Source of the DNA: Neorhizobium vignae
GTDB lineage: Bacteria > Pseudomonadota > Alphaproteobacteria > Rhizobiales > Rhizobiaceae
Assembly (NCBI RefSeq): GCF_000732195.1
Contig: NZ_JNNU01000028.1
Location: 1-64,000, forward strand
DNA length: 64,000 nucleotides
Reading direction: 5' to 3'
Shown: piece by piece, positions 38,343 through 53,560 of the stretch
Layout of the letters: each line of letters opens with the position of its first letter
Numbering within the stretch: position 1 is the first letter of the stretch
Made by a program: the position numbers and the translations under genes
The notes under the pieces: generated by a model
Databases searched by the model: none
What the model was told of the DNA's origin: nothing
What the model saw: only the letters and a program-made list of their open reading frames with translations

Positions 38343-39884
38343 TTATTCGATGTCGAATTTGACGCCCTGCGCGAGCGGCAGGGTACGGCCGTAGTTCAGG
38401 GTGTTGGTGGCGCGGCGCATATAGACGCGCCAAGCGTCGGAGCCGGATTCGCGGCCGCCGCCGGTTTCCTTCTCGCCGCCGAACGCGCCGCCGATTTCGG
38501 CGCCCGAGGGGCCGATATTGACGTTGGCGATGCCGCAATCCGAACCGCGGGCGGAGACGAAGGTTTCGGCCTCGCGCATGTCATTGGTGAAGATCGAGGA
38601 GGAAAGGCCCTGCGGCACGTCATTGTGCAGGTGGAGCGCCTCGTCGAAGCTCGAATATTTCATCACGTAGAGGATCGGGGCGAAAGTCTCATCCTTGACC
38701 GGACCGGTCTGGGCCGGCATCTCGACGATCGCCGGGCGGACATAATAGGCGTCTGCCGCCTCGTCCTGGTGAACACGTTCGCCGCCGGTCACCTTGCCGC
38801 CTTCGGCCTTGGCGGCTTCCAGCGCATCTCGCATCTTGTCGTAGGCGGCCTTGTCGATCAGCGGGCCGACGAGATTGCCGTTTTCGAGCGGGCTGCCGAT
38901 CGTCACGGACTGGTAGGCCTTGGCGAGACGGGGCACCAGCGTTTCGTAGACGCTGTCATGCACGAACAGACGGCGCAACGAGGTGCAGCGCTGGCCGGCC
39001 GTGCCCATGGCGGCGAAGGCGACGCCGCGGAGCGTCAGGTCGAGATCGGCGGTCGGGGCGACGATCGCAGCATTGTTGCCGCCGAGTTCCAGCAGCGAGC
39101 GGGCGAAGCGCGATGCAAGCCGCGGGCCGACGGCCCGGCCCATCGCGGTGGAGCCGGTTGCGGAAACCAGCGGGATCTTGTCGTGATCGACGAGGACTTC
39201 ACCGATGTCGCGGCCGCCGATCAGAAGGGTCGAGAGGTTCTTTGGTGCCTTTCCGCCGTCGGCGACGAAACGGGCGAGCGCCTTTTCGAAGATCGCCTGG
39301 GTGGCGAGCGCGGTCAGCGGCGTCTTTTCGGACGGCTTCCAGACGGTGGAATTGCCGCAGACGATGGCGAGCGCCGCATTCCAGGACCAGACGGCGACCG
39401 GGAAGTTGAAGGCGGAAATGATGCCGATCGCGCCGAGCGGATGCCAGGTTTCCATCATCCGGTGCTCGGAGCGTTCGGTGGCGATGGTCAGGCCGTAGAG
39501 CTGGCGGGAAAGGCCGACCGCGAAATCGCAGATGTCGATCATTTCCTGCACTTCGCCGAGGCCTTCGGAGGTGACCTTGCCGACTTCGATCGAAACCAGC
39601 CGGCCGAGCGCCGTCTTGGCTGCGCGCAGTTCCTCGCCGAGCAGGCGGATCAGTTCGCCGCGCTTCGGGGCCGGCACCAGACGCCATTCGAGGAAGGCTG
39701 CGTGGGCAGCATCGATCGCCTTTGCGGCGCCTGCGGCGGTTTCTTCCGGCAGCTTGCCGATCTCTTTGCCGGTGATCGGCGAACGGACGGCGAGCGTGCC
39801 GCCGGTATAACTTTCGGCCTTTACGCCGAGACCGCCCAGAATGTTTTTCACTTCAGCGGCGAGATCGAGAGTGGCGAGCGTCAT
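38343..39884 (-). CDS. amaB: L-aminoadipate-semialdehyde (piperideine-6-carboxylate) dehydrogenase, ALDH7 type
   Basis: 513 residues. Aldehyde dehydrogenase core: SAFNFPVAVWSWNAALAI near 160, the general-base Glu in LELGGNNAAIVAP near 263 and the nucleophile Cys in TAGQRCTSLRRLFVHD near 300. The NNAAI form and RCTSLRR fit the ALDH7/AmaB group, which oxidises 2-aminoadipate 6-semialdehyde to aminoadipate. It follows the FAD oxidase by 56 bp and precedes the P1 peptidase by 3 bp. The substrate assignment rests on subfamily resemblance plus context. Confidence 0.88.
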   Translation of the reverse strand: MTLATLDLAAEVKNILGGLGVKAESYTGGTLAVRSPITGKEIGKLPEETAAGAAKAIDAAHAAFLEWRLVPAPKRGELIRLLGEELRAAKTALGRLVSIEVGKVTSEGLGEVQEMIDICDFAVGLSRQLYGLTIATERSEHRMMETWHPLGAIGIISAFNFPVAVWSWNAALAIVCGNSTVWKPSEKTPLTALATQAIFEKALARFVADGGKAPKNLSTLLIGGRDIGEVLVDHDKIPLVSATGSTAMGRAVGPRLASRFARSLLELGGNNAAIVAPTADLDLTLRGVAFAAMGTAGQRCTSLRRLFVHDSVYETLVPRLAKAYQSVTIGSPLENGNLVGPLIDKAAYDKMRDALEAAKAEGGKVTGGERVHQDEAADAYYVRPAIVEMPAQTGPVKDETFAPILYVMKYSSFDEALHLHNDVPQGLSSSIFTNDMREAETFVSARGSDCGIANVNIGPSGAEIGGAFGGEKETGGGRESGSDAWRVYMRRATNTLNYGRTLPLAQGVKFDIE

Positions 39885-39940
39885 GTCAGTCTCCGGATGT
39901 GTAATTTTCGTCAATCTACAAGTCGGTGGCGGTTTCGCAA

Positions 39941-41224
39941 TCAGAACCGCTCGCCGGCGAAATGGGCGACCTGTGCGCCCGTTTCGTAATAAGCTTCCTT
40001 GATGGCGCGGAAGCCGGGTTCCTGAACCTCGGTCAGCGGCAGCGGGAGGTCGGCTTCCGAAACCTCGCCGAGGATATGGCGTGCCAGCAGCTTGCCGAAC
40101 GTCGTGCCCGGGGCGATGCCGCGGCCATTGTAACCGGAAAAACCGAGGACGTTGCGGCGGAATTTATGGAAACGCGGCAGAGCATTGTCGGTCATGCCGA
40201 TCTGGCCATACCATTCGGCCTCGAATTCCACATCTCCGAGCTGCGGAAAGAGCCGTTTCAGCGAGCGCCGCGCCCAGCTCTTGTGGATACCCGTTCCGGT
40301 GCCGCGCAGTGCGCCGACCGAACCGAAAACGAGCCGGCCGGCCTGGTCCATGCGGAAGGAGGAGAGGATGTCCTTGGTGTCCCAGCAGCCTTCTCGACCG
40401 GGCAGGATCGAGCGGCGCAGGTTGTCGCCGAGGGGCGTGGTGGCAAGGTTGAAATAGGGCAGATAGACCTGTTCGCGGCGCACCTGCTCCCAAGGGCCGG
40501 TGCTATAGGCGTCGGTCGCGACGATGATCCAATCGGCGGTCACTTCGCCGGAGGCCGTCCTGACGACCTTCCGGCCGTTGACGTCATCCGTGCCGGTCAC
40601 CGCGCTGCCGGTATGGAGCTTGGCGCCGGCCTTCACCGCCGCATGGGCAAGACCACGCGCATAGGCAAGCGGCTGCAACGTGCCGGCGCGCATGTCGAGC
40701 AGCGATCCGGCATAGGCACTGGAACCAACACGCCTTTCCGTCTCGGCGGCATCGAGCAAGGTCACCGGCGCGCCGCGCTTCTGCCATTGGCGAGCGCGCT
40801 CCACCAGTTCCTTCAGCCCTTCCGGACCAACGGCGCAATGCAGCGTGCCGCTCTTTTCCAGTTCGCAGGCGATGGCGTGTTTCTCGATCAGTTCGCGGAC
40901 CAGGGCAGGGCCGCTGCCGAGCAGGTCGAGCAGGCGTTCGCCGTAGATGGGACCGAGTTCCTTGGGGAAATCGTCGGGCATCACCCACATGCCGGCATTG
41001 ATGAGGCCGACATTGCGGCCGGCGCCGCCGAAACCGATCTCCGCGGCTTCGAGCAGTACGACATCCGTTCCGGCCTCTGCGAGATGCAGGGCCGCCGAAA
41101 GGCCCGTGTAGCCGCCGCCGACGATCACCACGTCGGCCGATATAGCCTCCTCCAGCCGGGTGGTGAGCGGCGGGGCGGGGGCGGTCTTTTCCCAGAGGCC
41201 GTGAGAGCGGGGATCGTTCAGCAT
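39941..41224 (-). CDS. amaA: FAD-dependent amino-acid oxidase, probable L-pipecolate oxidase
   Basis: 427 residues of the DAO/PuuB family. The FAD dinucleotide motif VVIVGGGYTGLSAA is at about 32-45, preceded by the SHGLWEKTAPAPPL segment common in gamma-glutamylputrescine and pipecolate oxidases. GYNGRGIAPGTTFGK near 367 is the C-terminal FAD contact. With an ALDH7 gene directly downstream, the likely reaction is L-pipecolate to piperideine-6-carboxylate, as with AmaA/AmaB of Pseudomonas putida. A polyamine or other amine substrate is possible. A divergent LysR gene starts 98 bp away. Confidence 0.8.
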   Translation of the reverse strand: MLNDPRSHGLWEKTAPAPPLTTRLEEAISADVVIVGGGYTGLSAALHLAEAGTDVVLLEAAEIGFGGAGRNVGLINAGMWVMPDDFPKELGPIYGERLLDLLGSGPALVRELIEKHAIACELEKSGTLHCAVGPEGLKELVERARQWQKRGAPVTLLDAAETERRVGSSAYAGSLLDMRAGTLQPLAYARGLAHAAVKAGAKLHTGSAVTGTDDVNGRKVVRTASGEVTADWIIVATDAYSTGPWEQVRREQVYLPYFNLATTPLGDNLRRSILPGREGCWDTKDILSSFRMDQAGRLVFGSVGALRGTGTGIHKSWARRSLKRLFPQLGDVEFEAEWYGQIGMTDNALPRFHKFRRNVLGFSGYNGRGIAPGTTFGKLLARHILGEVSEADLPLPLTEVQEPGFRAIKEAYYETGAQVAHFAGERF

Positions 41225-41322: not shown

Positions 41323-42261
41323 ATGCTGCCGCCCCGGCGCTTTCTCCCGTCATTCTCGTTGCTCTCCGCCTTCGAGGCGGCTGCCCGCACCGGCAGCGTC
41401 ACGGCGGCGGCAAACGAGCTCGGCCTGACACAGAGCGCCGTCAGCCGTCAGATTTCGGCGCTGGAGAAACAGCTCGGCGTGGCGCTGTTTCTGCGCGAGC
41501 GCCAGACGATCCGGCTGACGCTTGCCGGCGACGGTTATGCCCGCGAGGTGCGGGAGGCGCTCAGGCGCATTTCGCATGCTTCGCTCAATCTCAGGGCCAA
41601 TCCCTCCGGCGGCACGCTGAACCTTGCCATCCTGCCGTTTTTCGGCACGCGCTGGCTGACGCCGCGGATCGGGCGTTTTCTCGATGCGCATCCGGGCATG
41701 GTCGTGAACCTGATCACACGGCTCGAACCGTTCGATTTCCGGTTCGACACGCTGGATGCCGCCATTCATTTCGGTGCGGCTCGCTGGCCGGGTGCGGCGC
41801 TTACCTTCCTGATGGATGAAGAAGTGCTGCCCGCATGCAGTCCGGAGTTCAGGACGCGGCACAATCTTCAAACTCCGGCCGACGTGCTGCAGGCGCCGCT
41901 TCTGCATCTCAATACGCGGCCGGACGCCTGGGAATTGTGGTTCTCGAAGAACCGCATCCCGTTCGATGCCTTGCATGGGATGCTGTTCGACCAGTTCATC
42001 ACCATGGTCGAGGCGGCAACCGCCGGCCTCGGTGCCGCGCTGCTGCCGCGGTTCCTGATCGGCCGGGAACTCGAGCAGGGTCTGCTGGTGCCGGCTGTGG
42101 ACGCCGAGAGGATGGAGACCGGCCAATATCATCTCGCCTATCCGCCTGACCGGGCCACCTACCCGCCGCTTGCCGCCTTCCGGGACTGGATCATCCGGGA
42201 AATCCACACGCAAGAGATTCGCCAGGATACGCTTGCGAACGGCGGCCGCATCGGCCAATAG
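41323..42261 (+). CDS. LysR-family transcriptional regulator
   Basis: 312 residues. The N-terminal helix-turn-helix is LSAFEAAARTGSVTAAANEL then LTQSAVSRQISALEKQLGVA (about 12-52), followed by the linker helix and a substrate-binding domain starting near GGTLNLAILPFFGTRWLTP. The RFLPSFSLLSAFEAAART form resembles GcvA/BetI-type LysR members. Divergent from the oxidase gene with a 98-bp shared gap, it is the likely regulator of that operon. Confidence 0.9.
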   Translation: MLPPRRFLPSFSLLSAFEAAARTGSVTAAANELGLTQSAVSRQISALEKQLGVALFLRERQTIRLTLAGDGYAREVREALRRISHASLNLRANPSGGTLNLAILPFFGTRWLTPRIGRFLDAHPGMVVNLITRLEPFDFRFDTLDAAIHFGAARWPGAALTFLMDEEVLPACSPEFRTRHNLQTPADVLQAPLLHLNTRPDAWELWFSKNRIPFDALHGMLFDQFITMVEAATAGLGAALLPRFLIGRELEQGLLVPAVDAERMETGQYHLAYPPDRATYPPLAAFRDWIIREIHTQEIRQDTLANGGRIGQ

Positions 42262-42314: not shown

Positions 42315-42551
42315 ATGAAACCTATTTTCGTCCAGCTCCGCTGCAAGCCCGGCAAGACCTACGAGGTTGCCGACGCCATCTACAAGACCGAGCTCGCCTC
42401 CGAACTCTATTCGACCAGCGGCGATTGGGATCTGTTGTTGAAGGTCTATATCAAGGACAACGACGAGATCGGCCGTTTCGTGAACGAGAAGATCGCTTCC
42501 ATCCCGGGCATCGAGCGCTCGCTGACGACGATGACTTTTACCGCGTTCTAG
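42315..42551 (+). CDS. stand-alone Lrp/AsnC ligand-binding (RAM) domain protein
   Basis: 78 residues forming a complete alpha-beta RAM domain: PIFVQLRCKPGKTYEVADAI, TSGDWDLLLKVYIKDNDEIG and SLTTMTFTAF. There is no DNA-binding helix-turn-helix. Such single-domain proteins bind amino acids and may modulate full-length Lrp proteins or enzymes. It lies 53 bp after the LysR gene, in the lysine/pipecolate neighbourhood, and is followed by a strong terminator. Confidence 0.9.
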   Translation: MKPIFVQLRCKPGKTYEVADAIYKTELASELYSTSGDWDLLLKVYIKDNDEIGRFVNEKIASIPGIERSLTTMTFTAF

Positions 42552-42605: not shown

Positions 42606-42803
42606 TCAGACATGCGCCGCCGAGGCGCTGTTGCGCGAGCGAACCAGCTCGCGGATGGCCAGACGCACCTCGTCGGCAGAGCCGAAACGTTGCTCGTCCA
42701 GATCGATGACATGGAATTTCACGGCGATGAACTTCAGCCGGTCCGCGTCAGGAATGACAATGCCGACGGGCTCGCCGCCGAATTCGATTACTTGCTTCTG
42801 CAT
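42606..42803 (-). CDS. small conserved-looking protein, 65 residues
   Basis: Soluble, with a beta-alpha pattern: VIEFGGEPVGIVIPDADRL, LKFIAVKFHVIDLDEQ, then a helix DEVRLAIRELVRSR. Composition and length suggest a real small protein; I do not recognise a named family. It lies alone and ends 20 bp from the bidirectional terminator, which supports it being a transcribed unit. Confidence 0.65.
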   Translation of the reverse strand: MQKQVIEFGGEPVGIVIPDADRLKFIAVKFHVIDLDEQRFGSADEVRLAIRELVRSRNSASAAHV

Positions 42804-43235: not shown

Positions 43236-45881
43236 TCAAATTTCCGAGAGCAGGGTCTCGATCCGATCGACAAGCCCGTCCGCGCTTTGGCGGCTGAAGC
43301 ACAGTGGCGGACGCAGGACGAGGCGTCTGGGAGCACCGATATCCGCGACAATGCCGGGTCGCAGCCGTTTGCCGAGGTCCGCCGCTTCTTCGGCGAGATC
43401 GATGACGAGCAGCAGCCCGCTCCCCGATACGGCGGAGATTGCGGGAAAACGTTCGGCCAGGCTTTCAAGCCGTATCTTCAGATGGCTGCCGATCTCGCGC
43501 GTATTTTCGCGCATTTTTTCCTCCCGGACGACGTCGAGCGCAGCGATAGCGGAGGCTGCCCCGACGGGGCAGATCGCCGGCGGGTGCAGGTCCGTGGGGA
43601 GGTTTGCGGCGATCTCGGGCCGTGTCATGAGAAACGACGGAGCGCCGCCGTCCGGCCCGTCCACAAATACGATGTCCGGCGCGAGCCCGCGGTGCGAAAA
43701 GCCCCAGGTGTGGTGTCCGAGGCGGCCATAACCGGTTCCGGTTTCGTCGACGATCAGCAGACCGGCCTTCTGACGAAGTTCCGTCAGGGGCTCGTCCAGA
43801 TTCGCGGGCTCGCCATAACCCTGCGCCAGCACTGCAGCGACATCATCGAGATCGTGGATCATGTCGGTTGCCGTTCCAACGGACGGGACGGCGAAGAAGT
43901 CCGGATCCCGTCGATCCATCCGCAGCCCCGGCAGCCCGATGATGCCACGCTTGGTGGTATGGCTGCGGGCAAGCCTGAAGGCGAGGTCCAGCGCCGCCGC
44001 GCGGCCAGAGACAAAAAAGACATGGCTCAGCCCCTCGGGCGCAAGCTCGGTCAGTTGCGCGCGCAGAGCCTCCTCCGCCTCAGATGGGTGGCCTGCGGCG
44101 CGGTTGAGGAGGATGGTCTGCCGGTAGGTCGCGGCAGCAAGGCGCGGATGCCCGTAGCCGATCAGCGGCGCCCGGCCGCCAAGATCGAGCGCGCTGCGGC
44201 CCGTCGCATCGAAGAGGTATTCCTTCCAGCCGCGGACGGGCTGGTCGGGATATCCCGGAGCCGGGGTATTCGCGTCGATACCGAGCAGCGCCGACGGCGA
44301 AGGGCACAATCTAGACCATGTGCCCACGTCGGTCGGCTTGCAGAAGAGGGGCGGCACCAGATCCGGATCGAGGCAGAACCTGAGGCGCAGGCCGCCGACG
44401 GAATTTTCGGCCCCCGCGATGACGCCAAGCGGGTCGCCCGCGGCGAGTTCTGTCTCTTCGGCCAGCACGCATTCCAGGCCTTCGACATGCAGGGTCAGGT
44501 CGCGGCCGACAAGGACGAGGCGGGGTCCGGCGGTTTTCAGCGTACCCGCAAAAGGCGCCACCGCCGGCATCCGGGCGGGTATGCAGGCATCGATGTGAAG
44601 CGCGAAACTTTCCGGTTCCTGCTGCGGGTCGGTGCTGCTTTTGGAAAGCCGGTATTCGCCGTAACGGGTGCTGGCGCGGCCGGTTTCCCGGGCAATATGG
44701 GCAAGCAGCTTCCAGTCGTTGTCGGCGTCCGTCCAGTTTCCGCCGTAAAGAAGCGGACTGGTGACACTCAAGTCCACCAGCCGGAAAGTGTCCGGGTCGA
44801 TATCGGGCAGGAGGCGGCCGATCTCCGGCAGCGGTTTTTCCATGCCCGTCGCATCAAGGATGGCCGCAAACACCTGTGCCGGCGAAATGGTCGTTGCGGT
44901 GTTCAGTACGGCGCGGCGTTTCTCTGCGTCTTCCCTGGCCTGCGGGTCGTCGGGTGACCCGGTCTGACGGCTTTCGGCTTCGGCGGCGAGAATGCCGGTG
45001 CGGGCGACGACCAGCGGCCACAGCGCCTCGAGTTCGTTCAGGGTGAACGGATGGATGTCATGATAGGCGCGGATCGCCGGCAGCAGCGCGAAAGGATCGC
45101 CGTCGCGGTCGGCGAGCAGATAGGCGCAGGTATTGGCGAAACCGGCGACCAGCCAGCCGTTGGAAATGCCGGTGAAATCAGTCACGCCGGTCGGCAGCCA
45201 TGCGCCGTCCGTATCCTCGCCGACGACGGTTTCGCCGTTGATGTTCTGGTGCGCCGCCGCGATCCGCAGGCTTGGGCCGAGCGGCTGGATGCGCCGGAGC
45301 GCCGTCACCATCGCCTTGGCGATCACGTCTCGGATTTCCTGGTCGGCGACGGCGGACAGAAGCGTGACCGTCTGCGGGCCGGCCTTGCGCAGGTCCCCTT
45401 CCGGCTCGCGCTGCAGGATCGGATGTTCAAAATCCAACAGACTCTTTGCAAGTGCTGCAGAGATCGCCCCGAAGGCCGCCACGGCCTGGTCCGGCAGCCT
45501 CTCGCCACTCGGCGGGGCCGTGCCGTCGAGAAAGGTGAGGAGCCGGATGCGCCGGTCTTCGCCGCCGAGCGGCAGGACGAGCGTGTCGCCTCCATCCCTG
45601 GTCACCACCGGTTCGGGAACCCGCGGCCCGTCCGGGCTGCGCAGGATATGGCGCATCAGGGCGTGTTCAGCCTCGATCTCCTCGATAGGCCCTTCGGCGG
45701 GCGCCACCTTGAGCAGGTAGCGCATGTGGCCGTTGTCGATCAGGAAATAAGGGTTTTGCCGGCCCTCGATCGGGAAGATCTGCCCGGAAAGCCCGTAATG
45801 GTCGCGTAGAACGTCCTCGATCGCTTCGATCGGAAGGTCATTTGCGGGAGGCTCGATCAGTTCTGGCAGTACGTCGGACAT
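43236..45881 (-). CDS. kinase-aminotransferase fusion with both active sites altered
   Basis: 881 residues. Residues 1-310 resemble an APH-type kinase, about 410-500 a small beta-rich peptidase-M23-like or biotinyl-like insert, and about 540-881 a class III aminotransferase. This is the layout of large rhizobial fusions related to hydroxylysine kinase plus phosphohydroxylysine phospho-lyase. The kinase catalytic HGD...N motif reads HQN at 211-213 with D235-F236 kept. In the aminotransferase the PLP-phosphate loop reads SGRAAA instead of GSEAN, and the PLP lysine after PDIV is Gly742 (PDIVFVDGPDGG); Asp712 is kept. ATG follows GGAGAGG and the frame is intact throughout. It may be a regulator, scaffold or altered enzyme. 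Confidence 0.8.
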   Translation of the reverse strand: MSDVLPELIEPPANDLPIEAIEDVLRDHYGLSGQIFPIEGRQNPYFLIDNGHMRYLLKVAPAEGPIEEIEAEHALMRHILRSPDGPRVPEPVVTRDGGDTLVLPLGGEDRRIRLLTFLDGTAPPSGERLPDQAVAAFGAISAALAKSLLDFEHPILQREPEGDLRKAGPQTVTLLSAVADQEIRDVIAKAMVTALRRIQPLGPSLRIAAAHQNINGETVVGEDTDGAWLPTGVTDFTGISNGWLVAGFANTCAYLLADRDGDPFALLPAIRAYHDIHPFTLNELEALWPLVVARTGILAAEAESRQTGSPDDPQAREDAEKRRAVLNTATTISPAQVFAAILDATGMEKPLPEIGRLLPDIDPDTFRLVDLSVTSPLLYGGNWTDADNDWKLLAHIARETGRASTRYGEYRLSKSSTDPQQEPESFALHIDACIPARMPAVAPFAGTLKTAGPRLVLVGRDLTLHVEGLECVLAEETELAAGDPLGVIAGAENSVGGLRLRFCLDPDLVPPLFCKPTDVGTWSRLCPSPSALLGIDANTPAPGYPDQPVRGWKEYLFDATGRSALDLGGRAPLIGYGHPRLAAATYRQTILLNRAAGHPSEAEEALRAQLTELAPEGLSHVFFVSGRAAALDLAFRLARSHTTKRGIIGLPGLRMDRRDPDFFAVPSVGTATDMIHDLDDVAAVLAQGYGEPANLDEPLTELRQKAGLLIVDETGTGYGRLGHHTWGFSHRGLAPDIVFVDGPDGGAPSFLMTRPEIAANLPTDLHPPAICPVGAASAIAALDVVREEKMRENTREIGSHLKIRLESLAERFPAISAVSGSGLLLVIDLAEEAADLGKRLRPGIVADIGAPRRLVLRPPLCFSRQSADGLVDRIETLLSEI

Positions 45882-45966
45882 GAACCTCTCCGGAAGGGCG
45901 CTTCCGAAGAGGATAGAGCGTTAAAAGCTCGCGTCCATAGGCCTTTCTACCGACTTTGGATGAGCC

Positions 45967-46851
45967 TCAGCCCATGCGCTCCGAAGCGTAGGAGCCCGGG
46001 CTCGGCGGGAAGACGACGGTGCGGTTGCCGTTGATGAAGGTGCGGTGATGGATATGGGCGTGGATGGCGCGCGCCAGGACCTGGCTTTCGACGTCGCGGC
46101 CAAGCGAAACATAGTCATCGGCCGACTGCGCATGGGTGATGCGCACCGTATCCTGCTCGATGATCGGACCTTCGTCGAGATCGGCGGTGACGTAATGGGC
46201 CGTGGCACCGATCAGCTTCACGCCCCGCGTATAGGCCTGCTTGTAGGGATTGGCACCCTTGAACGACGGAAGGAAGGAGTGGTGGATGTTGATGATCTTG
46301 CCGGACATCTTCTTGCAGAGATTGTCGGACAGGACCTGCATGTAGCGGGCCAGCACGATGAGTTCGGTGCCGCTCTGTTCGACCAGATCGAGAAGCTGGG
46401 CTTCGGCCTGAGGCTTGTTTTCCTTGGTCACCTTGATGTGGTGGAAAGGAATGTCATTGTTGACGACCAGTTTCTGGTAGTCGAAATGGTTGGAGACGAC
46501 GCCGACGATGTTGATCGGCAGGGCGCCGATCTTCCAGCGGTAGAGCAGGTCGTTCAGGCAATGGCCGAAACGCGACACCATCAGCAGCACCTTCATGCGC
46601 TCTTCGGTGTCGAAGATCTCCCAATCCATCTCGAACCGCTCGGCAATCGGCTTGAAGCCTTCGAGCAGTGCCGGACGTTCCGCTCCTTCTTCGGAGAGGA
46701 AGCTGACGCGCATGAAGAACTTGCCCGTGTCGAGGTCATCGAACTGGGATGAGTCGATGATGTTGCAACCCTTTTCGGCCAGAAAGCCGGAAATCGCGGC
46801 GACAATGCCGCGCGTCGTCTTGCAGGATACGGTCAGGACATAGTTGTTCAT
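45967..46851 (-). CDS. purU: formyltetrahydrofolate deformylase
   Basis: 294 residues, the expected length. An N-terminal ACT domain (YVLTVSCKTTRGIVAAISGF, FDDLDTGKFFMRVSF) precedes a formyl-transferase-like hydrolase domain with LPINIVGVVSNH near 115, INIHHSFLPSFKGANPY near 192 (catalytic His) and ATAHYVTADLDEGPIIEQD near 218 (catalytic Asp). It hydrolyses 10-formyl-THF to formate and THF, balancing one-carbon pools. The open frame continues 264 bp upstream but without PurU similarity. Confidence 0.95.
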   Translation of the reverse strand: MNNYVLTVSCKTTRGIVAAISGFLAEKGCNIIDSSQFDDLDTGKFFMRVSFLSEEGAERPALLEGFKPIAERFEMDWEIFDTEERMKVLLMVSRFGHCLNDLLYRWKIGALPINIVGVVSNHFDYQKLVVNNDIPFHHIKVTKENKPQAEAQLLDLVEQSGTELIVLARYMQVLSDNLCKKMSGKIINIHHSFLPSFKGANPYKQAYTRGVKLIGATAHYVTADLDEGPIIEQDTVRITHAQSADDYVSLGRDVESQVLARAIHAHIHHRTFINGNRTVVFPPSPGSYASERMG

Positions 46852-48296: not shown

Positions 48297-50129
48297 ATGA
48301 TGGACGCTCGACATAAATCCCCGGCCGCCGGGGAAACCCCGCCCCTGCCTCAACGCTCGGCTTCGCAACCGCTGACGTTCGGCGGCACTGTCGGGCTTTT
48401 CACGCCATCGTCCGCGGGAATCGCGCCGTCCGGCGTGGCGGTGCTGTTTGCCAGCCCCTGGGGACTGGAGGAAATGTGCACGCGCAAGTTCTGGCGCATC
48501 ATTTCGGAAAGGCTTGCCGATCGCGGCATCGCCAGCCTGCGGTTCGATTATCCCGGTACCGGCGATGCGCTTGACGACCTCGATTTCGAGGGCGGGCTTT
48601 CCGTCTGGTCCGACAGCCTCGTTTCCGCGGCCACGCATCTCAAGGCGCTTTCCGGTTGCGAGCGGATCGTCCTCGTTTCCCAAGGCCTGGGGGCGGTCGT
48701 CGCGACCAAAGCCGCCGACAGGCTCGAAGATCTGGCCGGCATTGCCTATATGGCTCCGGTCGTTTCCGGTCGCCTGCATATTCGCGAGCTTGCGGTCTGG
48801 TCCAGGGTGGTGGATGAAAATCTGGGCCTTGCCGACGGGCAGCGCGACAAGGCCGGCGTGTCCATCGCCTCGCACACCATGCCCGGCCAGATCGCCGACG
48901 AGGTTCGCAAGGTCAATCTGCTGATGATCGATCGGCAGGCCGCGCCACGCGTTCTGGTCGTCGGGCGGGCCGACCGGCCGGCCGACACGCAATTCGCCGC
49001 GCGGCTCCGGGCGCTCGGGTCGGATGTGACCGAGCAGGCTTTCGAAGGTTACGACCAGCTGGTCTCCAATCCCGCGATTGCGAGACTGCCGCTCCCGGTG
49101 GCGGACAAGCTGGCGGACTGGATCGTTGCGTTACCCGGTGAGGCACCCTCCGCGGCACACCGCACGCCGGTGCAGGCGGAGCCGCTCGTCGGTGACGGTT
49201 TCACGGAAATCCCGGTTCGTTTCGGCCTCGACGATCGGCTGTTCGGGGTCCTCTGCGAGCCGATTCACGGCCGTGCGGGCGCCACGGTGCTTTTCCTGAC
49301 ATCGGCCTACGACAGGCATGCCGGCTGGGGGCGCTCGACGGTGGCGCTGGCCCGGTCGCTCGCCCGCTCCGGCATTCCTTCGCTGCGTTTCGATACCGCC
49401 AATGCAGGAGATAGCCCGCCGGTGCCGGGCCGGCCGGAGCAGGTTCTCTATCATTCCACCCAAATTGCCGATGTATCGGAGGCGATCGACTTTCTTCAAA
49501 GCCGCCGCCTGACGCCGGTCGTTACCGCAGGCCGCTGCAGCGGTGCCTATCTCGGCTTTCAGGCTTCGGTCGCCGAACCCCGCATCGCCGGCAATGTATC
49601 CGTCAATCCCGCCGTGTTTCGCTGGTCGCCTGGCCGGTCGGTGGAGGATGCGATCGTCAACGGCACGCGCAGCCTGCAGGACTATCGCAGGCGGGCCCTG
49701 CGAGCCGAAACGTTCAAGCGCATCATCCGAGGTGAGGTCGATACCATTGTCGCGGCCCGCAATATCGCGAAGGGGCTCGGCAACCGAGCTAAGCACAAGA
49801 TCCTGCATGCCTTTCGTGGTTTCCTGCCGGAGGGCCGGGCGATCTACGGCGCTTTCCGCACCCTCCACCAGCGCGGCACCTCCGTTTCGCTGATCTATAG
49901 CGAAAATGATCTCGGCCTCGAACAATACGACTTCTATTTCGGCCATGACGGGTCCGGATTGAGCCGGTTCCCCAATGTATCGGCGGAGATCATTCCGGAT
50001 GCCGACCACAATCTGACGCCGGAGCATGCCCGCGCTGCCTATCTCAAGGCTCTCAGGCAAATGGCTTTCCGTTTTCCGCTGGAAGAGCTCGCCTATTCAA
50101 AAACGCAGGATGCGGTCGCTGCCGAGTGA
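48297..50129 (+). CDS. tandem alpha/beta hydrolase
   Basis: About 610 residues with two alpha/beta-hydrolase domains. Domain 1 (about 35-270) has FASPWGLEEMCTRKFWRI, LRFDYPGTGDA and a nucleophile-elbow region LVSQGLGA. Domain 2 (about 310-600) has FLTSAYDRHAGWGRSTVALA, LRFDTANAGDS, an elbow AGRCSGAYLG where Cys occupies the nucleophile place, YSENDLGLEQYD (acid) and DADHNLTPEHA (His). Organisation recalls hydrolases tied to exopolysaccharide or exosortase loci. The start is uncertain (GTG 48270 also in frame). Its end overlaps the GH2 gene on the other strand by 33 bp. Confidence 0.8.
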   Translation: MMDARHKSPAAGETPPLPQRSASQPLTFGGTVGLFTPSSAGIAPSGVAVLFASPWGLEEMCTRKFWRIISERLADRGIASLRFDYPGTGDALDDLDFEGGLSVWSDSLVSAATHLKALSGCERIVLVSQGLGAVVATKAADRLEDLAGIAYMAPVVSGRLHIRELAVWSRVVDENLGLADGQRDKAGVSIASHTMPGQIADEVRKVNLLMIDRQAAPRVLVVGRADRPADTQFAARLRALGSDVTEQAFEGYDQLVSNPAIARLPLPVADKLADWIVALPGEAPSAAHRTPVQAEPLVGDGFTEIPVRFGLDDRLFGVLCEPIHGRAGATVLFLTSAYDRHAGWGRSTVALARSLARSGIPSLRFDTANAGDSPPVPGRPEQVLYHSTQIADVSEAIDFLQSRRLTPVVTAGRCSGAYLGFQASVAEPRIAGNVSVNPAVFRWSPGRSVEDAIVNGTRSLQDYRRRALRAETFKRIIRGEVDTIVAARNIAKGLGNRAKHKILHAFRGFLPEGRAIYGAFRTLHQRGTSVSLIYSENDLGLEQYDFYFGHDGSGLSRFPNVSAEIIPDADHNLTPEHARAAYLKALRQMAFRFPLEELAYSKTQDAVAAE

Positions 50130-52580
50130 ACGGATCGTGCCGCCGGGTCTGCCGGCGGCGTCCGGGAGTGCGGCAAGGCGGATGCGCCTGATTGCCCCCG
50201 GCGCCAGGTGAAAGCCATTGTCCGAGGGACGATAGCCGGCGCATTCGATGCTGACCGATTGCGCAAAGATGTCCGTCGAAAGCTCCAGCCAGAACGCTCC
50301 GTCGCCCTCTGCGACCGAAACCGCAATCTCGGCATCGTGGAAAGCGCGGGCGCGTCCGAGCGGGAAATGGAAAGCCTCTGCGACAATCTCCCCCGTTTGC
50401 GCATGTTTCAGCCGCGCAACCGTCACGTCGTGAGAGGGTGGGCCGAAACGGTAGGCGTAGTTGGTGTCGAAGAAGGCGCCGAACAGATCGGTCGAGGCGA
50501 TGCTTTCGCTGCTGCGAGAAGCAAGCGTCAGGTCTCGGCGGCCGGATACGACGGGCATCCTGCCGTCCCGCAGGCAGGCGAGTTCGAGAACCACCGGCAG
50601 GTCGGCGGGCGTTTCATTGAGAAGGTGGATATCGAGCCCGTTGGTGCCCTCGTCGGCAAATATGGCCTGGACCGGCCGGAAGGCCCGCTTCAGCGCGAAC
50701 CAGGCAGGTTTCGGCGTGCGGTCGACGCCGACCACGCCCCAGCCGGGACCGTGCATGACATCCTGGAAGGTAAAGGCCAGCGCGCCGTTGCAGGTCGATC
50801 CGGGCCGGCGCCATTCGGCGAAAGCGGTTTCCATCACCTCTCCGGTCACCGCCCGGGAGAGGGCGAGATACCGTTCTGGCTGCTGCGCCCGCAGCATCTG
50901 CGGATCGGCATCGTAAAGCGTGCCGAGGTAATGATCGCGAACGTCCTCGAAATCCCAGTCCACGCCGGCATCACGGGGGATTCCGGACTTGCCGCCGGCC
51001 AGCGTTTCCGAGTCGGAGAGGTTTGAGAAAGCCAGGCATTCGGCTGCAAAGCGGATATTCGCCCGCCGCGCATCCTCGAGCGGCCGCTTGTAGGCGCCGA
51101 CACCGTAATAATGGGCGACGCCGGCATTCGGGTAGAAAGGCAAGGCGCCGCCGGAAGGCGAGTTCGCCACATAAGGCAGGTCCGGCCGGCAATCGGCTGC
51201 CAAGGCAGGAAGGATCTCCTCGCAGAGCAGACCTTTCCAGATCCGTTCCGGCAGGCCCAGCATGGCGCCTTGCTGATAGATTTCGCTGCCGCCGCAAAGG
51301 ACCGCAAGCGACGGCGAGGCCTGCGTCGCCGCCAGGAACTGCCCGACTTCCGTTTTCACGTGAATCACGAAATCCGGATCGCCGGCAGGATAGTCGAAAT
51401 TGGCGAACATCAGGTCCTGCCAGACCAGCAGGCCGAGTTCGTCGCACAGCGCAAAGAATTCCGGGCTTTCATAGGTGACGATGCCCGGAATGCGGATCAT
51501 GTTCATGCCCGCGTCTTTCGCGAGCCTGAGCCAGGGCTCATAGCCGGCGCGATCGCCCGGCAGGTTGACGATATCGGCGGAGGTCCAGACGGCGCCGCGG
51601 CAGAATATCTTCTCGCCGTTGACGATGACGGCGAAATCGTTGTCGTCCGTGCCGCGATCGATCTCCAGGCTGCGGAAGCCGGTCCGGGCGAGCGGGAATT
51701 CTTCGCCGTCGATCTGGAGTATCACGTCGTAAAGCGCCGGGGCGCCATGGGTATGCGGCCACCAGGGTTCTATACCCGGCAGGTGAAGCTCGGCGGAATA
51801 TCGGCCGCCGTCATTTGTAAAATGTGTCTCCCTGCCATTGCAGACGAGTCGGAGATCGTGGGACGATCCGTCAAAGGCAAGGCTGACCTTGAGAAGGCCT
51901 GCTCCGCTTTTATCAAGCTCGGCGGAGACGGCGAGCTCCCTCTTCTCCCCAGCGGGGAGAGGGTGTCCCGCAGGGCCGGACGAGGGGGCCGAAGCCAAGC
52001 GGTTATCGGCGATGCGCAGCACCGAAACCGGCCGCCAGGGGCCCACCGCATGAACCTCCGGACACCACCCCGGCATGAAGCCAAGTGCGGTCGTGCGGAT
52101 CAGGCGGAGACCCTGGCGGTTCATCAGCCGAGGACGCCAGCGGGCACGAGGTCCGGTCTTTTCCAGATGCGGTTTCAAGGCTCGAAAGCAGATCGACAGT
52201 GTTTCGCTGCCCGTCAGTTCCACCGCGACATCGTGGCTTTCGAACATGCTTGTCGAGGACAGGATCAGCGTCTCGCCGAGAAACACATCGGCGACAGTCG
52301 CAAGCCCGGCAAACCGCAGGATCGCCGGCCCGGGCGCTTCACCGGCAAGCCGGCAGCGATACCAGGCATCCTTGTCGATCAGCGGCTCGGGTTTGTTACG
52401 GTCGAAGCGGCCGGCGGCTTCCAGGGCCGCGGCGACCGTGCCGGGCACCATGGCCGGGAGACATTCCAGATCCGGAGGAAGATCGGACGGCAGAGAGCAG
52501 GCGCCCGGCTCCGTCAACGCCAAGGACCAGCCATCGGTAAGAAGGCTGGTCTTTGATCCGATCGGGATAAGAAGGCTCAC
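50097..52580 (-). CDS. glycoside hydrolase family 2, beta-mannosidase-like
   Basis: 827 residues from the GTG at 52580, which overlaps the DUF1839 stop (GTGA). An N-terminal sugar-binding domain (LTDGWSLALTEPG, AMVPGTVAAAL, DKDAWYRCRL), a beta-sandwich (ALGFMPGWCPEVHAVGPW) and a TIM barrel (AKDAGMNMIRIPGIVTYES) are visible. The usual acid/base NE reads LCGGSEIYQQ with Ser in place of Asn; a nucleophile Glu is likely in FAAECLAFS. No signal peptide is seen, so it acts in the cytoplasm. It is the last gene of the carrier-protein ligase operon, an unusual place for a glycosidase. Confidence 0.85.
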   Translation of the reverse strand: MSLLIPIGSKTSLLTDGWSLALTEPGACSLPSDLPPDLECLPAMVPGTVAAALEAAGRFDRNKPEPLIDKDAWYRCRLAGEAPGPAILRFAGLATVADVFLGETLILSSTSMFESHDVAVELTGSETLSICFRALKPHLEKTGPRARWRPRLMNRQGLRLIRTTALGFMPGWCPEVHAVGPWRPVSVLRIADNRLASAPSSGPAGHPLPAGEKRELAVSAELDKSGAGLLKVSLAFDGSSHDLRLVCNGRETHFTNDGGRYSAELHLPGIEPWWPHTHGAPALYDVILQIDGEEFPLARTGFRSLEIDRGTDDNDFAVIVNGEKIFCRGAVWTSADIVNLPGDRAGYEPWLRLAKDAGMNMIRIPGIVTYESPEFFALCDELGLLVWQDLMFANFDYPAGDPDFVIHVKTEVGQFLAATQASPSLAVLCGGSEIYQQGAMLGLPERIWKGLLCEEILPALAADCRPDLPYVANSPSGGALPFYPNAGVAHYYGVGAYKRPLEDARRANIRFAAECLAFSNLSDSETLAGGKSGIPRDAGVDWDFEDVRDHYLGTLYDADPQMLRAQQPERYLALSRAVTGEVMETAFAEWRRPGSTCNGALAFTFQDVMHGPGWGVVGVDRTPKPAWFALKRAFRPVQAIFADEGTNGLDIHLLNETPADLPVVLELACLRDGRMPVVSGRRDLTLASRSSESIASTDLFGAFFDTNYAYRFGPPSHDVTVARLKHAQTGEIVAEAFHFPLGRARAFHDAEIAVSVAEGDGAFWLELSTDIFAQSVSIECAGYRPSDNGFHLAPGAIRRIRLAALPDAAGRPGGTIRSLGSDRILRF

Positions 52581-53560
52581 GCGGCCTCGCGGGCGTGGCT
52601 CAGCGTTGATGCCAGGTCCCCCATCAGCAGGTCCCATGCGTCGGCGGCCGGATCGAGCGCTGTTGCGAGCGGCTCGAACTTCTTGCGGGTAATGGCGCGG
52701 GCAAGCTGGAACTGGGTGGATTTCGCCACTTCCGAAATCCTCAGTGCCTGCTGTTCAGGCTGAGCGAACGCCTTGTGGTTCAGCCAGGCGAGATGGCTCG
52801 CCAGCAGCTCGAAATTGGCGCCAATCTGCCGCAGCGTGTTGAACGCATATTTGTGAAAGAAGCCGAAGTCCCTCTCGGCGATCCGCTCCACCTGCGCCGG
52901 GAAGACTTTCCCGAACGCACGGATCGGATTGTCCTCCGGCCGCCGCGGAAAATGATGCCTGAGCAGCTTCCAGGCGGTTTCCCGAATTTCCCTCGCGTCC
53001 GGATAGGCGGCGGGGAACTTGGCGAATTCGGTATAGGGCAGGAAGGGCAGCGCCTCGGGTCCGGCGTTCAACTGGAACAGGCCATCGAAATCTTCGCTGG
53101 AAAGGGTGAAGAAGCCGCCATTGTGGAAATAGTCGAGCTCGCGGCGTTCGAGGTCCAGCCGGTTGATCGCGACCGTCGTCTTGCCGTGTTCCTGGCGATA
53201 GGCGACGCCGCGCGTATCAGGCAGATAGAAGCTGTCGAGTTCGAGCAGCGTCAGCCGGCCGCGGCGGATCTGCTCCGCAACATGCCATTCCGGCCGGTCG
53301 AAGATCGCCAGTTCCGTCACGCGGATGCCGAACAGGGTTTCGAGGTCTTCGAGCGGCACCTTGAAGAAGGTGAACTGGTCGCCCTCGAAATCCTGGGTCA
53401 GGGTGAAACCGAGCATGGCTTCCGGCGGCAGGCCTTGTGCCGAAAGCACCTCGATCCACAGATCGACGTAACAATTCGTCTCCGGCCACATGCGCTCGGC
53501 CGAATGCAGCGCATGCGTCCTGTAGTTGGCCGGATCGAGCGCCGGAAATACCGCCGTCAT
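52577..53560 (-). CDS. DUF1839-family protein
   Basis: 327 residues, soluble. It begins FPALDPANYRTHALHSAERM with the conserved WPETNCYVDLWIEVLSA near 25, DFEGDQFTFFKVPLEDLETL near 57 and ELDSFYLPDTRGVAYRQEHGKT near 105. DUF1839 genes accompany amino acid:carrier-protein ligases in rhizobia. The ETNCYVD stretch with Cys, and later conserved Asp residues, suggest an acyl-handling enzyme that takes the aminoacyl group from the carrier (inference). It lies 4 bp after the ligase and overlaps the GH2 gene by 4 bp. Confidence 0.83.
   Translation of the reverse strand: MTAVFPALDPANYRTHALHSAERMWPETNCYVDLWIEVLSAQGLPPEAMLGFTLTQDFEGDQFTFFKVPLEDLETLFGIRVTELAIFDRPEWHVAEQIRRGRLTLLELDSFYLPDTRGVAYRQEHGKTTVAINRLDLERRELDYFHNGGFFTLSSEDFDGLFQLNAGPEALPFLPYTEFAKFPAAYPDAREIRETAWKLLRHHFPRRPEDNPIRAFGKVFPAQVERIAERDFGFFHKYAFNTLRQIGANFELLASHLAWLNHKAFAQPEQQALRISEVAKSTQFQLARAITRKKFEPLATALDPAADAWDLLMGDLASTLSHAREAA

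Follow-up and report, generated by a model that had tools for sequence, protein, structure and literature searches.

A kinase/phospho-lyase-type fusion protein of Neorhizobium vignae with replaced active sites, a probable pseudoenzyme maintained by selection

Background

Kinase-aminotransferase fusions of the NF004800 / PRK06149 family (about 975 amino acids, aa) occur in the Rhizobiaceae, and the fusions of the PRK06148 / NF004799 family (about 1015 aa) follow a three-part plan with a recognisable M23 domain; in the Sinorhizobium meliloti PRK06148 fusion the middle domain is a recognisable M23 (LytM) domain, matched by Pfam with 44.2 bits. Here we analyse a gene of Neorhizobium vignae whose product has the domain order of the first family, with which it shares common descent, and the three-part plan of the second. 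It occupies positions 43236..45881, minus strand, of a 64,000-nucleotide stretch (assembly GCF_000732195.1, contig NZ_JNNU01000028.1, positions 1 to 64,000), referred to below as the window. The original prediction for this gene described an intact fusion with both its kinase and its pyridoxal phosphate (PLP) active sites replaced, possibly a regulatory pseudoenzyme of lysine-type metabolism. We find that the gene is under purifying selection and probably encodes a maintained multi-domain pseudoenzyme that acts by binding, its working core having moved to the degenerate M23-like middle domain.

The M23/LytM zinc motif comprises HxxxD and HxH, according to an excerpt of PMC8416486, and in the degenerate LytM regulators EnvC, NlpD and DipM a dead domain of this type is kept for binding (excerpts of PMC8416486 and PMC10336132). 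An excerpt of the review PMC10211241 defines pseudoenzymes by the absence, in the sequence, of conserved catalytic motifs. No published description of a dead kinase/phospho-lyase fusion was found in a literature search to which most subscription papers were inaccessible; an excerpt of PMC11266112 holds no passage on M23, LytM, EnvC or NlpD.

Results

The reading frame runs without interruption from an ATG at 45881 to a stop at 43236 (881 codons), and a ribosome binding site, GGAGAGG, stands 3 bases 5' of the ATG (45885..45891, minus strand), as the original prediction had it; the plus strand of 43236-45881 has two stops. Open reading frame (ORF), Pfam and alignment evidence together describe a fusion of a dead kinase, an M23-like part and a class-III phospho-lyase-like part, all on the minus strand. 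The APH-type kinase domain (aa 1-330, 44892..45881), whose fold resembles N-acetylhexosamine 1-kinase, is followed by the degenerate M23/LytM-like middle domain, recognised by profile comparison and constraint (aa 331-540, 44262..44891), and by a class-III aminotransferase/phospho-lyase fold stripped of its cofactor site (aa 541-881, 43239..44261); we set the kinase and middle-domain boundaries ourselves. Pfam matches APH at aa 40-274 and class-III aminotransferase with a best stretch at aa 704-877, both above cut-off.

The fusion is present in this dead form (a dead fusion, for short) in 42/57 genus genomes; three have an intact fusion (G016, G043 and G048) and 12 no fusion. At E 1e-20, 46 genomes matched, one of them (G021) through a 453-aa aminotransferase-type frame only, and 11 did not; a search with the middle domain (45/57) agreed with this split. 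An open frame is present in 41 of the 42 dead copies. The counts leave out the window's own copy (L001), aminotransferases of its genome (L002-L010), genomes already represented (L040-L051, L057, L058), repeats (L039, L075-L078, L102), PRK06148-type and partial frames, and a split copy (L074) that enters only the 42 of 57. The 62 intact rows include two identical pairs (L054/L123 and L056/L124).

Both active sites are replaced, as alignment confirms. In the kinase, HQN at residues 211-213 (45243..45251, minus strand) stands where intact relatives have HHD, so the catalytic Asp is gone; the whole loop, HHDVTDDN in intact relatives of Sinorhizobium, Ensifer, Rhizobium and Pararhizobium, reads HQNINGET. 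The HxDxxxxN catalytic loop thus fails in the window protein, its Mg-binding Asn being replaced by Thr, and no dead sequence has the Asp and the Asn together. In the lyase domain (all minus strand), Gly742 (43656..43658) replaces the PLP lysine, which lies in an AKGMGNG stretch in intact relatives, and SGRAAA at 625-630 (43992..44009) replaces NSGSEA of the PLP phosphate loop, the canonical SGSE aligning on G626 R627 A628 A629 (NSGSE to SGRAA). Asp712 of the PLP site is kept (43746..43748). The YHG stretch of intact relatives, which we take to stack on PLP, has no counterpart, and the active-site damage is wider than first described. Neither the PLP lysine nor the SGSE loop is kept in any of 41 dead sequences. 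Nor did we find a substitute for the lysine, a way in which PLP binding might have been recovered: across the 41 dead sequences, Lys reaches a frequency of one half in just four columns, 146, 166 and 189 (kinase) and 449 (middle domain), and in none of the lyase domain. The identical replacements recur in separate assemblies at 83-95% identity, the nearest named relatives of the window's genome, which is Neorhizobium galegae-like, sharing 91-95% in the fusion protein. A sequence artefact or mis-called residues, in favour of which we found no supporting point, is therefore barely conceivable.

Selection was estimated by the Nei-Gojobori method on 38 pairs that we chose from the tree described below, 18 from the dead clade and 20 intact, with the nonsynonymous divergence (dN) of each domain taken over the synonymous divergence (dS) of the whole gene; the pairs are not strictly independent, because some lie in unresolved forks. 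Median dN/dS was 0.183 overall, 0.159 for the kinase, 0.143 for the middle domain and 0.254 for the lyase in dead pairs, as against 0.138, 0.148, 0.203 and 0.084 in intact pairs. The middle domain had diverged less than the lyase in 17/18 dead pairs (the sole exception being L016-L017) and in 0/20 intact pairs (Fisher p 6e-10). Codon models in IQ-TREE gave likelihoods only, with no fitted ratio printed; when the ratio was held at 1, as far as the model string specifies it, the likelihood fell by 634, 590 and 459 units in the three dead clades tested, and three intact clades likewise reject a ratio of 1. Near-invariant positions (at least 95%) number 39 in the kinase, 49 in the middle domain and 25 in the lyase of dead sequences, and 96, 24 and 180 in the intact ones. 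Among the positions that are fixed in the dead clade and found in fewer than half of intact sequences are G381, N382, D389, W390, A394, E467, G497 and R501; such positions belong mainly to the middle domain. The fusion is under purifying selection, and in the dead clade the strongest constraint has shifted from the lyase to the middle domain, so that what was the least constrained part has become the most constrained. The two-domain picture of the original prediction had overlooked this part.

These results bear on two rival explanations. The first is that the gene is a decaying pseudogene, open by chance. Its absence from 12/57 genus genomes and a copy split over three frames in G040 would agree with decay. 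The original prediction had named neutral rates and frameshifts in relatives as signs of it; the dead pairs have a median dN/dS of 0.18 (domain medians 0.14-0.25), a ratio of 1 is far worse in three dead clades, and frames are open in 41/42 genus carriers and over long branches (the stem alone measuring 0.61 changes per site). Chance would hardly leave this dead architecture uninterrupted and under purifying selection in 41 genus genomes, and we regard decay as very improbable.

The second is a cryptic enzyme, in which one of the folds runs another reaction with migrated residues. Purifying selection on all three domains would suit it, as would a kinase dN/dS that is nearly unchanged, a near-invariant lyase core in the dead clade (Asp712-Glu713, Gly717, Arg720, Gly722 and Trp726) and the pseudokinases with alternative transferase activities that an excerpt of PMC10211241 reviews. 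However, the kinase-loop residues differ by subclade (HQN, VPD, HHD, YHR and HHH), unlike a new active site held in common, the lyase domain offers no widely conserved Lys, and the dead-specific fixed positions lie mainly in the middle domain. A cryptic activity thus seems unlikely, if still the most plausible of the alternatives.

The middle domain is M23-like and has lost the metal motif. Pfam M23 matches 4/22 dead middle domains (best E 0.00041) and leaves the window's own unmatched; a profile comparison with the middle domains of three PRK06148 fusions gave E 5e-5 in this one case, with a probability of only 40. In that alignment HxGxD falls on A427-L-H-I-D431 (44589..44603, minus strand), at the HxxxD motif, with the His lost and the Asp kept, and HxH falls on G497-L-R499, the start of G497-L-R499-L-R501 (44379..44393, minus strand), from which we conclude that the motif is gone. 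G497, R499 and R501 are invariant in 41/41 dead sequences. Intact PRK06149-type relatives do not keep the motif either, and their commonest reading at 499-501 is R-x-Q. The genus search gave 45 matches, none of them a stand-alone middle domain, and no solved structure was related to this domain by sequence up to E 5.

According to structure prediction, the kinase and lyase domains retain their folds. The model of the window protein has a mean predicted local distance difference test score (pLDDT) of 77.3 and a predicted template modelling score of 0.58, and that of an intact fusion (L055) a mean pLDDT of 69.9; the 50 listed structure-comparison matches cover the two outer domains and barely probe the middle one. 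Among solved structures, the lyase domain comes closest by sequence to O-phosphoethanolamine phospho-lyase ETNPPL (6tor) and phospholyase A1RDF1 (5g4i), both with the dead protein as query and with a profile of five intact and four dead sequences. The former is also first by fold, with many class-III enzymes within 1 Z unit.

A kept fold raises a third alternative, in which the protein would use its class-III dimer surface to pair with, and tune, an active aminotransferase encoded in the same genome. The inactive LCB1 subunit of serine palmitoyltransferase is a precedent for tuning by a non-catalytic subunit. R550, W552, D558, D566, G575 and Q588 of the N-terminal lyase part are near-invariant in the dead clade, and the genome has nine further places that match the lyase domain. 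None of the nine is in the window, however, and by median the lyase is the least constrained domain in dead pairs, which makes such a subunit doubtful, rather more so than a cryptic enzyme. An intact paralogue, for which the original prediction had suggested a search, was not found: the genome holds no second kinase-aminotransferase fusion with either the dead protein or an intact fusion as query. An APH family search gave six places, the fusion included, and the other five sit on contigs C11, C14 and C17 with no aminotransferase match there.

In a tree of 106 rows (quick method, LG+G4), all 41 dead sequences group in a single clade (support 100) at the end of the long stem given above, and the dead state is a single change. 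The sister group consists of five intact fusions of one other genus (92 in the Shimodaira-Hasegawa-like approximate likelihood ratio test, SH-aLRT). The program warned of long branches, a warning offset by the shared gene slot, which is independent evidence. One sister-genus locus (L136) has purU, intact fusion, RAM, LysR, AmaA and AmaB, the order of the window minus a 65-aa ORF, and another (L139) has purU, fusion, LysR, AmaA and AmaB; intact fusions at L136, L139 and L140 all sit beside AmaA/AmaB. In a further genus (g30), intact fusions also follow purU, and the loci inspected there have the 65-aa ORF downstream of the fusion. Taken together, tree and gene order establish that catalysis was lost once and in place, not in a spare copy.

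Outside the genus, losses of this kind were not seen. A family-wide sample of 394 genomes gave 60 matches, 7 from the genus itself and 53 from outside it; of the latter, all but G363 were retrieved and 51 were assessable, and in 51/51 every catalytic residue checked (HxD, Asn, DFG-type Asp, SGSE, PLP-site Asp and Lys) is kept. The remaining copy (L110), cut by a contig end, has intact kinase residues, SGSE and Asp, the Lys not being visible. An order-wide sample of 397 genomes gave 8 matches, none new. Both samples were searched at E 1e-40 with two candidates scored per genome, and neither contained a dead fusion outside the genus, though dead forms that are rarer or have diverged further may have escaped them. 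The three intact fusions within the genus (L072 in G016, L070 in G043 and L073 in G048) belong to another clade and another locus, and the purU slot of these genomes has no fusion; functional replacement or separate acquisition is possible. On pSymB of S. meliloti strain Ak57 (L079, 5953-13135), intact PRK06149- and PRK06148-type fusions are separated by one gene and adjoin hutC and hutF.

In the window, the fusion lies directly after purU (formyltetrahydrofolate deformylase; 45967..46848, minus strand, start chosen by us), which passes its model cut-off. Next downstream is the 65-aa ORF (42606..42803, minus strand), conserved and with no Pfam family. Its identity is 71-100% across the examined loci with a dead fusion and 67-76% at three loci where an intact fusion follows purU; the five loci of the sister genus yielded no copy. 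The ORF occurs in 15/15 genus genomes that lack the dead fusion and is better conserved than the fusion. There follow a 78-aa stand-alone AsnC/Lrp ligand-binding (RAM) domain with no DNA-binding part (42315..42551, plus strand), a LysR-type regulator (41323..42261, plus strand), an AmaA-like FAD oxidoreductase (39941..41224, minus strand; 440 bits, where the cut-off for L-pipecolate oxidase is 600) and AmaB, an L-piperidine-6-carboxylate dehydrogenase (38343..39914, minus strand). The last is the nearby ALDH7 of the original prediction, and its 819.9 bits with NF050084 exceed the curated cut-off of 730. The RAM domain, here adjoining LysR, is present at 74-100% identity in 26/36 loci examined. 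Farther off, a glycoside hydrolase family 2 (GH2) type protein (50097-52637, minus strand; central GH2 domain 19.3 bits, under the Pfam cut-off of 23) is found near the fusion in 24/43 loci, some loci being too short to tell.

Discussion

The fusion of N. vignae fits the description of a pseudoenzyme in two respects: its catalytic motifs are absent by sequence and it is retained by selection. Its catalytic sites have been lost, yet purifying selection persists and constraint has moved to the middle domain; therefore it most likely works by binding. An active kinase/phospho-lyase-type fusion between purU and LysR-AmaA-AmaB lost both active sites once, in the dead clade's ancestor, with its outer folds kept, as the models predict, and purifying selection continuing. 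The middle domain, with its invariant arginine pair at the former metal-site motif, probably contacts a ligand or partner protein, and the kinase and lyase folds would form a frame, perhaps dimeric. The likeliest target may be the neighbouring lysine/pipecolate branch. A more specific reading, which we put forward tentatively and hold at somewhat under even chances, is that the active fusion was turned in place, once, into a non-catalytic sensor or scaffold, in which the middle domain, a dead M23 module with a new R-x-R, would be the functional core and the two enzyme folds its frame.

In the hydroxylysine route, a kinase and a phospho-lyase act before AmaB. Such a route for the active ancestor agrees with the gene order, and the nearest solved relatives are phospho-lyases and the sister-genus intact fusions lie beside AmaA/AmaB; both points suit the original prediction, in which active fusions would degrade hydroxylysine. 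Its proposal of a regulatory pseudoenzyme of lysine-type metabolism therefore stands in part: selection and open frames bear out a maintained pseudoenzyme, whereas the regulatory link is positional, and from position a role as regulator or scaffold in lysine/pipecolate breakdown is at most hinted at.

Several observations weigh against the interpretation favoured here. The kinase Asp is retained in 12 dead sequences, and constraint on the kinase as a whole has hardly shifted (0.159 in dead versus 0.148 in intact pairs). The M23 kinship is weak by profile comparison, at the probability of 40 given above, and the structural model is moderate, with aa 374-384 and 543-579 below pLDDT 50. The fusion is dispensable, being absent from 12/57 genus genomes. 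Of the 15 genomes that lack a dead copy, 14 have a gap of 0.4-0.6 kb between purU and the 65-aa ORF and show no remnant of the fusion there (E 0.01); the fifteenth (G021, L142) has no purU within 1.5 kb. The split copy in G040 (L074, 7123-9745; 70-81% identity to L027) may reflect recent decay or an assembly error. As for the metabolic link, the dead gene is not beside AmaB in G018, G027 and G028, and AmaB matches occur in 57/57 genus genomes, also in the 12 that have no fusion (in G018 as a 74% copy only, in G049 as a partial one), so that co-occurrence with AmaB is uninformative.

If the more specific reading is correct, a single chain combines three dead active sites, and the active sisters of this pseudoenzyme hold the same locus in neighbouring genera. 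Pseudoenzymes are common, but active sisters at the same locus and a measurable shift of constraint between domains make a useful test bed for the transition from enzyme to binding protein. There is also a practical side: models of the active family still match the dead fusion, so an automatic aminotransferase label would mislead metabolic reconstruction of these symbionts.

Finally, we compared the fusion with the known systems it most resembles. Like the dead fusion, PRK06149-type fusions stand immediately behind purU in two or more other genera. The dead fusion scores 602.1 bits with the PRK06149 model, below the curated cut-off of 973, and compared with the members of that family it is 94 residues shorter than 975 aa, lacks the catalytic residues and has its constraint inverted. 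The M23 domain of PRK06148 keeps HLGLD and HLH, where the dead fusion has ALHID and GLR. ETNPPL and A1RDF1, the closest solved relatives of the lyase domain, are PLP enzymes, whereas the fusion lacks the PLP lysine, the SGSE loop and the YHG stretch. EnvC, NlpD and DipM act on cell-wall hydrolases, and for the dead fusion no cell-wall link was found; what it shares with them is a degenerate M23/LytM-like domain that has been kept, probably for binding.
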